The position numbers were made by a program, and so were the translations under genes. DNA of 64,000 nt, from NCBI GenBank assembly GCA_023957775.1, contig JAMLGR010000020.1, positions 1 to 64,000 of the forward strand. The letters run 5' to 3'. Source of the DNA: Fimbriimonadaceae bacterium (lineage in GTDB: Bacteria > Armatimonadota > Fimbriimonadia > Fimbriimonadales > Fimbriimonadaceae). Positions 28,891 to 33,266 of the stretch are shown one piece after another; within the stretch, counting starts at the first letter, position 1; each line of letters begins with the position of its first letter. Below the pieces are notes generated by a model. That model saw only the letters and a program-made list of their open reading frames with translations. It did not search any database and had not been told where the DNA came from.

Positions 28891-28919
28891 CAATTTCAGG
28901 TTGGATTGAAGGAGTTATG

Positions 28920-29507
28920 ATGAAAAAGGTACTTGTTTTGGCGCTTTGTGGCGTCGTGGGCAGCGCGTTTGCACAGACGGCGTTTTGGTCTGGAGACACC
29001 ACGGGTGGCCCGACGATGGCCCGCCCCCTCTCGTACACCGGGACTTCCGGCAGCGGCACGGCGGTTCACTACCAGGTGCAGCCGTTCTGGGTCACCGTTG
29101 GCGGGACCTACACGTTCGAGATCAACGGCGTCTCGCACCCGGACACCTATGCGCTCGCGTACAGCAGCTTCAACCCGGCCACGCCGTTGGTCGGCCTGCT
29201 GGACGGGGACGACGACTTCAGCGGTTCGTTCACGCTGTTGTCGGGCACGGGGCAAGGATTTGCCTCCTCCCGAATCGGGGTCGGTGAGACGACCAACTTC
29301 TCCGGTGGAACGGGCCTCGGGCTCTCCGCGAACACCCAGTACTATGCCGTCGTGGCGGGATTCGGCAACAACGACTTCGGCACGTACGACGCCGCCATCG
29401 GTGGCGGCCAGGGTCGCGTCGTGCTCGGCGCGGTGCCTGAGCCTGCGACGATGCTCGCGCTGATCGCCGGCGTAGCCGGCCTCGCCTCGCGCCGCCGACG
29501 CAAGTAA
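28920..29507 (+). CDS. PEP-CTERM sorted extracellular protein
   Basis: 195 aa. Of two adjacent ATGs the second (28920) is 5 nt from the SD GAAGGAG and is preferred. Signal peptide (MKKVLVLALCGVVGSAFAQ). The mature part is a beta-sandwich-like chain rich in Gly, Ser, Thr and aromatic residues (TYTFEINGVSHPDTYALAYS), like short pre-peptidase or DVUA-type domains. The C-terminus VPEPATMLALIAGVAGLASR plus RRRK is the exosortase signal. It has its own sigma-70 promoter, a 5' hairpin and a strong terminator, so it is a monocistronic, probably highly expressed surface protein. Confidence 0.85.
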   Translation: MKKVLVLALCGVVGSAFAQTAFWSGDTTGGPTMARPLSYTGTSGSGTAVHYQVQPFWVTVGGTYTFEINGVSHPDTYALAYSSFNPATPLVGLLDGDDDFSGSFTLLSGTGQGFASSRIGVGETTNFSGGTGLGLSANTQYYAVVAGFGNNDFGTYDAAIGGGQGRVVLGAVPEPATMLALIAGVAGLASRRRRK

Positions 29508-31471: not shown

Positions 31472-32575
31472 ATGCCAGGCGAGGTGCGGTACGAGCTGCT
31501 TTCGGTGTGCCCCCACACCGGCGCGCGCCGAGGCCGCCTCCACACACCTCACGGCATCGTCGAGACCCCCGCCTTCATGCCCGTGGGCACCGCGGGCACG
31601 GTGAAGACGGTCTCTTCCGAGGAGTTGGAGGCGTTGGGCTTCCGCTTGATCCTCGCCAACACGTACCACCTCTCCCTGCGGCCGGGCAGCGACCGCATCG
31701 AACGCCTCGGCGGCTTGCACAAGTTCATGGGATGGAGGGGCGCGATCCTCACGGATTCGGGCGGTTACCAGGTGATGAGCCTGGGGAAGATGCGAGACAT
31801 CGACGACCAGCGCGTTCGGTTCCGGTCCCATCTCGACGGTTCGGAAGTATGGCTCAGTCCCGAGCGCGCGCTGCAGATCCAGTGGGAGCTCGGAGTGGAC
31901 ATCGCGATGGTGCTCGACGAGTGTCCGCCTTTCCCCTGCAGCCGGGACGAGGCGGCCGAGGCCATGCGGCGGACCCATCTTTGGGCGGAGCGGTCGATCC
32001 GCGCGCGGCGGGCCGGCCAATCTTGCTTCGGCATCGTCCAGGGCGGCGTGCACGACGACCTGCGCGACGAGAGCGCGGCGTTCATCACCTCGCTGCCGTT
32101 CGAGGGCTTTGCGATCGGAGGCGTGTGCGTCGGGGAGCCGACGGAGATGCAGTACCCGGTGGTCGCGCGCACGGCCCGCCGGCTCCCCGAAGAGAAGCCG
32201 AGGTACCTCATGGGCGTCGGGCACCCTCGAGATATCGTGCACGCCGTCGCAAGCGGGATCGACCTGTTCGACTGCGTGCTGCCCACCCGGATGGCGAGGC
32301 ATCACTGCCTGTACACGTTGAAGGGGCGCGTGAACATCATGGGCTCCGAGTGGACCGACGTCGACGCGCCCGTGGACGCGCAGTCCGTCTTTCCGCAGAC
32401 GGAGCGGTACCCCGCGGCCTACCTGCGCCACCTGTTCAAGGCCAACGAGCCGCTGGGTCCAAGGCTGGCCACCCTGCACAACCTCGCGTTCTACGCGCGG
32501 CTGATGGAGGAGGTACGGGAAGCGATCGCGGCAGGGACCTGGCCCGCGCTGGCGGAGCGGTACGCGCAGGCGTGA
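31472..32575 (+). CDS. tgt: queuine/preQ1 tRNA-guanine transglycosylase, zinc cysteines replaced
   Basis: 367 aa, normal length. Active-site motifs: DSGGYQ with D95, CFGIVQGGV, EGFAIGGVCVGE, and the nucleophile in GIDLFDCVLPTR. The enzyme swaps guanine 34 of certain tRNAs for preQ1. The zinc site, normally CxCxxC plus a His 26 residues later, reads S305, F307, T310 and H336: spacing is exact, the histidine is kept, all three cysteines are gone. The surrounding helix (ERYPAAYLRHLFKANEPLG) is well conserved. It may not bind zinc, or may use another fold-stabilising contact. No other queuosine gene is in this window. Confidence 0.93.
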   Translation: MPGEVRYELLSVCPHTGARRGRLHTPHGIVETPAFMPVGTAGTVKTVSSEELEALGFRLILANTYHLSLRPGSDRIERLGGLHKFMGWRGAILTDSGGYQVMSLGKMRDIDDQRVRFRSHLDGSEVWLSPERALQIQWELGVDIAMVLDECPPFPCSRDEAAEAMRRTHLWAERSIRARRAGQSCFGIVQGGVHDDLRDESAAFITSLPFEGFAIGGVCVGEPTEMQYPVVARTARRLPEEKPRYLMGVGHPRDIVHAVASGIDLFDCVLPTRMARHHCLYTLKGRVNIMGSEWTDVDAPVDAQSVFPQTERYPAAYLRHLFKANEPLGPRLATLHNLAFYARLMEEVREAIAAGTWPALAERYAQA

Positions 32576-32648: not shown

Positions 32649-33266
32649 TTATCGCTTTCGGCGGCGGGCGGCAGTTGCCAATCCCGCTGCGGCAAGGACC
32701 AGAGTAAAGGGCTCGGGGACCGGCGCCAGGCTCACGTCGTCCAGGAACGCGAAGTGCGTGTTGGCATCCTCGTCGTTGAAGAACGTGATCGTCGTCGGAT
32801 TGCCGGTACCTGCGAAGTCGAGGCTGAACCCTTGCCAGGCGATCACGGCGTTCGCGTTGTTGAGGTTGAAGCTCTGCGCCGCTCCCCCGTCGATCGAGAC
32901 TTTTATGACGCCTGTTCCCGTCCGATTCGCATAGTTCGAGGTACCGCCCCAGAAGGAGAGCCTGTACTGTTGCGCAGCCACGGTCGCAACCGTTTGTTCG
33001 ATCCCGCCACCGGTGAAGGTCGTCGGGGCGAGGTCCACCACCTGGTTGCCATCGTGGGCCGTTCCGATCGAGTAGATAGCCGGATCGAAGTGCTCGACTC
33101 CGTTAAGCACCGTCGTCCATCCTGTGATCACGTTCGAACCGCCCGCCACGTAGCCGTAACCCGAGGGCTGATGGGGAACTTCGAAGCTCCCATTGACGAT
33201 CAAGTTCGCTGACGCTGGCGCCACAACGCAGAACAAGCTTGCTAGGACGATGGTGGTTCGTTTCAA
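32649..33266 (-). CDS. choice-of-anchor C / DUF642-like PEP-CTERM protein
   Basis: 205 aa from a TTG start (no SD; TAAAGT lies only 3 nt away, so the start is less sure). Signal peptide (KRTTIVLASLFCVVAPASA). The mature start NLIVNGSFEVP, then ITGWTTVLNGVEHF and GNQVVDLAPT, match the choice-of-anchor C domain of DUF642-like galactose-binding sandwiches. C-terminus VPEPFTLVLAAAGLATAARR is the PEP-CTERM signal, here with PF instead of the usual PAT. Probably surface-exposed and carbohydrate-binding. Confidence 0.8.
   Translation of the reverse strand: MKRTTIVLASLFCVVAPASANLIVNGSFEVPHQPSGYGYVAGGSNVITGWTTVLNGVEHFDPAIYSIGTAHDGNQVVDLAPTTFTGGGIEQTVATVAAQQYRLSFWGGTSNYANRTGTGVIKVSIDGGAAQSFNLNNANAVIAWQGFSLDFAGTGNPTTITFFNDEDANTHFAFLDDVSLAPVPEPFTLVLAAAGLATAARRRKR

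Follow-up and report, generated by a model that had tools for sequence, protein, structure and literature searches.

Loss of the zinc-binding cysteines from the tRNA guanosine(34) transglycosylase of Fimbriimonadaceae and a sister family

The tRNA guanosine(34) transglycosylase (Tgt) encoded in a 64,000-nucleotide stretch of a Fimbriimonadaceae genome (the window) lacks all three cysteines of the family's structural zinc site, while its catalytic residues are intact. We consider it very probable that this is a functional enzyme in which structural zinc has been replaced by side-chain packing, after a single loss of the metal in an ancestor shared by the Fimbriimonadaceae and a sister family. 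More broadly, and with slightly less assurance, we think it likely that zinc is not intrinsic to Tgt: a metal-free form would have evolved repeatedly, once at the base of these two families with a Ser-Phe-Thr core, and would be used for queuosine by most Bacteroidota. The absence of bound metal, the packing in its place and the enzyme's activity are all three things that we infer.

The gene, tgt, occupies positions 31472..32575 on the + strand, from an ATG at 31472 to a stop codon ending at 32575, and encodes 367 amino acids. The product is a bona fide Tgt: it matched the NCBI equivalog model TIGR00430 over its full length (430.6 bits; cut-off 306.75) and Pfam TGT at 468.7 bits, while its score against the archaeal TgtA model fell far under that model's cut-off. 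No second Tgt was found in the genome (3.5 Mb, 97% complete). The flanking genes are unrelated: upstream, on the other strand, lie a class-V aminotransferase (SerC-like) and a DUF554 protein, and downstream a DUF642/PEP-CTERM protein and NamZ. A search for known RNA elements around tgt, a preQ1 riboswitch among them, gave no Rfam match anywhere in the 64-kb window. The tgt region lies between two small proteins that are predicted to be secreted, each with a PEP-CTERM-like tail (28917-29507, + strand; 32649-33266, - strand).

Alignment to the Z. mobilis Tgt with phmmer was gap-free through the zinc-site region, on both sides of the site. It placed Ser305 (codon tcc, 32384-32386, +), Phe307 (ttt, 32390-32392, +) and Thr310 (acg, 32399-32401, +) opposite C318, C320 and C323 of the C-x-C-x2-C motif, and His336 (cac, 32477-32479, +) opposite the ligand histidine H349. 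A preliminary description of the window had reported just this, a missing cysteine triad with the histidine and the exact spacing kept, and the alignment bears it out. Three of the four ligands that would mark the protein as a zinc metalloprotein are absent, and the C-x-C-x2-C plus His site does not exist in it. The description had also named equivalent cysteines at a shifted position as something that would overturn its claim; we looked for these and ruled them out. Residues 298-340 contain neither a cysteine nor a newly conserved histidine, and because all seven cysteines of the protein (13, 151, 156, 185, 219, 268 and 279) precede residue 280, there is no shifted replacement.

The nucleophile and base pocket, which the same description had called intact, proved to be so. 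Using D280, D102, S103, D156, Q203, G229 and G230 of Z. mobilis as reference residues, we found the catalytic nucleophile Asp267 (32270..32272, +), the general acid/base and pocket pair Asp95-Ser96 (31754..31759, +), and D149, Q190, G216 and G217. Whether or not the triad is present, Tgts vary little or not at all at the catalytic residues. The segment from Tyr313 to His320 (32408..32431, +), which adjoins the former zinc site, carries the counterparts of the aromatic hot spot of the dimer interface (Y313, Y317 and H320 for Z. mobilis W326, Y330 and H333); these lie in the zinc subdomain and are conserved throughout the two families. One Tgt in our collection (L051, JAPLCS010000099.1) has Pro in place of Ser96 in the otherwise invariant D-S-G motif, which may be a sequencing error.

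The substrate expected of the window Tgt is preQ1. In eukaryotic queuine-specific Tgt, we take Gly and Val to stand where bacterial enzymes have Val233 and Cys158 (numbered as in Z. mobilis); the window Tgt, with V220 and C151, is of the bacterial preQ1 type and lacks the eukaryotic feature. Both the window's genome and those of 12 relatives encode QueA, QueG and QueF (the QueF of G131 scored under the cut-off), which is indirect support for the idea that this enzyme replaces guanine in tRNA by preQ1. The QueG match in the window's genome (G000:C18:79955-80878) spans one in-frame TGA and possibly runs beyond the stop of its gene.

We compared this protein with Tgts from the window's family (f1) and the sister family (f2), from a further three families belonging to their order (f3-f5), and from 50 loci in the remaining Armatimonadota. 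The cysteine triad was missing in all 97 f1 and f2 sequences that cover the site (68 non-redundant), single-contig genomes and complete chromosomes among them, and was kept in 13 of 13 Tgts of f3-f5 and in 49 of the 50 other loci (the exception reads C-A-C). The change is therefore clade-wide, a question that the preliminary description had proposed to settle by aligning Tgt families. Its statement that the cysteines are gone holds for the window protein, but a few members of the clade retain one of the three, at 305 in L189 and L194 and at 310 in L030. In a maximum-likelihood tree calculated with the site's columns excluded, f1 and f2 came out together on a single starred branch (98), and f3-f5 lay immediately outside it. 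The simplest reading that fits these sequences is one loss of the triad in the common ancestor of f1 and f2, within Fimbriimonadia. Genome G074 (73% complete) has, on a 10-kb contig of its own, a second Tgt that is of the zinc type (L130, G074:C25:7629-8923; 49% identity) and may be a contaminant or an acquired paralogue.

Residue frequencies at the former site point to replacement followed by constancy, as opposed to decay. Position 305 is Ser in 65 of the 68 non-redundant f1 and f2 sequences (Asp in one member) versus Cys in 64 of 64 zinc-type Armatimonadota, and position 307 is Phe in 67 of 68 versus Cys in 63 of 64. At position 310, Thr (49), Leu (10) and Val (6) stand where all 64 zinc-type sequences have Cys; position 335 is Leu in 67 of 68 versus Tyr in 53 of 64, and position 336 is His in 68 of 68. 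Entropy across f1 and f2 was 0.37 bits at S305 and 0.08 bits at F307, compared to 2.4-2.6 bits at the same positions in triad-less Bacteroidota. Four residues outside the site, C13, H194, H251 and H278, set the zinc-less f1 and f2 Tgts apart: they are conserved there and seldom found in zinc-type relatives.

Triad loss is not confined to the window protein or its clade, and triad-less Tgts from other phyla were already among the relatives found first. Bacteroidota and Verrucomicrobiota genomes were sampled evenly for 70 Tgts each, the lowest-scoring few being left out. The triad was missing from 51 of the 70 Bacteroidota and 18 of the 70 Verrucomicrobiota Tgts, each set including a seed genome picked for lacking it. 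The triad is thus typical of Tgt, not universal, and its lack does not bar a protein from membership. On a FastTree phylogeny of 339 sequences, triad state changed at least 10 times, a parsimony minimum that does not separate loss from gain; we read the changes as losses, since regain of three cysteines is unlikely.

The same sample revealed what becomes of the histidine. All 156 triad-bearing Tgts have His at its position, and 32 of 183 triad-less ones have Gln there (23 from Bacteroidota and 9 from Verrucomicrobiota); the adjacent Asn337 never changes in either group. These alignments suggest that the histidine is constrained by metal where metal is present and was released in some lineages after triad loss. 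Because Gln appears in its place, and only in Tgts without the cysteines, the histidine is not needed there as a metal ligand; we rejected its retention as a sign of metal, and the weight that the preliminary description gave to it was misplaced. His336 is invariant in f1 and f2 though Gln occurs elsewhere, so it must have some role there, probably in packing. In six Verrucomicrobiota Tgts (L076, L083, L084, L089, L096 and L100) the site reads E/Q-x-H-x2-C plus His; such sites might still bind metal, so lack of the triad need not mean lack of metal everywhere.

An AlphaFold2 model of the window Tgt (85-sequence alignment) had a mean pLDDT of 95.1, and 96-99 across residues 291-360, values that are no proof that the loop folds without zinc because AlphaFold2 does not model metals and homologous alignments yield holo-like folds. 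The modeled protein has the TIM-barrel fold and C-terminal subdomain, and VIA-align superposed it on the Z. mobilis Tgt 1pud with a Z of 53.1 and an rmsd of 1.5 over 364 residues. Around residues 298-340, for which structure prediction had been suggested at the outset, the model shows no change of fold. A Bacteroidota Tgt that lacks all four zinc ligands is also predicted to be folded, with a pLDDT of 94.4. The models thus indicate that the window Tgt is compatible with a normal Tgt fold.

In the mechanism that we propose, the window Tgt would swap G34 for preQ1 in tRNAs with GUN anticodons via covalent Asp267. Structural zinc would have been lost once in the common ancestor of f1 and f2, and the loop formerly held by metal onto the C-terminal helices would now be packed mainly by Ser305, Phe307 and the Thr, Leu or Val at 310. 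This packed subdomain would still form the dimer interface and support tRNA binding. Zinc is probably dispensable for Tgt. The preliminary description had left the choice between folding without zinc and binding it differently; the former is the better-supported half, favored by the re-fixed non-ligand residues, the unchanged predicted fold and the recurrent losses with His to Gln, and binding differently at the site found no support.

Why the metal was lost is a separate matter. Adaptation to scarce zinc, like that seen in zinc-free ribosomal protein paralogues, would be compatible with packing, and we regard it as rather unlikely. A cysteine-free L31 was the only type found both in the window's genome (L215, G000:C24:7519-7746) and in four f1 relatives (L212, L213, L214 and L217), which speaks for such an adaptation. 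However, L31 is of the zinc type in the readable f2-f4 genomes (f2 being represented by G085 only), although the f2 Tgt is already triad-less; the Tgt and L31 losses were therefore not synchronous. Moreover, S14 of the window's genome keeps four of four cysteines. With the evidence so mixed, we did not adopt a general zinc-sparing trait; drift through a zinc-dispensable state, then selection for packing, would suffice. One f1 genome (G065) has, unlike its relatives, an S14 from which two of the four zinc cysteines are gone (L371; CSVTGR...CRQVLR).

It is improbable that the Tgt site still binds a metal through His336 together with Ser/Thr hydroxyls, backbone or water, or that a metal is held elsewhere by newly conserved Cys or His residues. 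The invariance of His336 fits the first version, and the conserved C13, H194, H251 and H278 fit a remote site. Yet the Phe at the central ligand position in 67 of 68 sequences cannot coordinate metal, residues 298-340 of the window Tgt have gained no Cys or His, position 310 tolerates Leu and Val and position 305 an Asp, and the histidine itself turns to Gln in triad-less Tgts of other phyla.

A degenerate enzyme, drifting after loss of both zinc and function, is more improbable still. In its favor, PMC9508795 states that Tgt activity requires zinc; against it stand the kept catalytic, pocket and interface residues, the retention of QueA, QueG and QueF, the finding of Tgt in 70 of 70 genomes of good quality from the window's family, and identities across that family that are mostly 65-76%. 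A sequencing, assembly or alignment artefact, which the preliminary description had raised in the form of sequencing error and for which we found no supporting point, has next to no probability and is already refuted by the same state in every f1 and f2 sequence covering the site, in two families and in complete chromosomes, with an alignment that is gap-free on both flanks.

Side-chain packing in place of zinc departs from the published picture of Tgt. PMC4425180 describes the four zinc ligands as highly conserved, the non-catalytic subunit of eukaryotes included, and in PMC6165067 the zinc domain counts as a Tgt hallmark; a passage of PMC9508795 that cites Chong 1995 lists Tgt as needing zinc for activity. 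The preliminary description's premise that known bacterial Tgts need zinc thus reflects the literature's view, but that view rests on zinc-type enzymes. Among the papers searched, a set short of subscription titles, we found no description of a zinc-less Tgt; an earlier one is possible.

The window Tgt resembles zinc-type bacterial Tgts (Z. mobilis 1pud, T. maritima 2ash, 10fb) in fold, length, nucleophile, general acid/base, base pocket, aromatic dimer cluster and His336-Asn337, and differs in having S, F and T at the three ligand cysteine positions; all bacterial Tgt PDB chains compared (10fb, 10fa, 2ash and Z. mobilis) keep the triad. With the triad-less Tgts of Bacteroidota and Verrucomicrobiota it shares the lost cysteines and intact catalytic residues, whereas on trees their losses are separate and their replacements are other and more variable (F-N-C, L-G-S, G-T-D, G-gap-V). 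Eukaryotic QTRT1/QTRT2 belong to the same superfamily and use the zinc subdomain in subunit contact, but there the ligands persist in both subunits, the non-catalytic one included (PMC4425180). Bacterial GluRS, whose zinc motif is missing in many bacteria, offers a precedent for dispensable zinc in another tRNA enzyme (PMC4381286); it is a different protein and domain, and was bench-tested. Ribosomal S4, L31 and S14 likewise swap a zinc ribbon for a zinc-free version of the same protein. The zinc and zinc-free forms of S4 spread by horizontal transfer (PMC3087516), in contrast to Tgt, one gene per genome that changed in vertical descent.

Recent papers tie zinc status to queuosine (Q) through Tgt as a zinc-requiring enzyme. 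If most Bacteroidota and other lineages do use a zinc-free Tgt, this link cannot hold for them, and zinc assignments made by homology would be wrong for a sizeable share of Tgts. Comparing zinc-type with zinc-free Tgts would then directly test what zinc is for, the repeated natural losses of the triad being ready-made experiments. Lastly, some Armatimonadota (G158, G194 and G256) carry extra Tgt paralogues with 36-41% identity.
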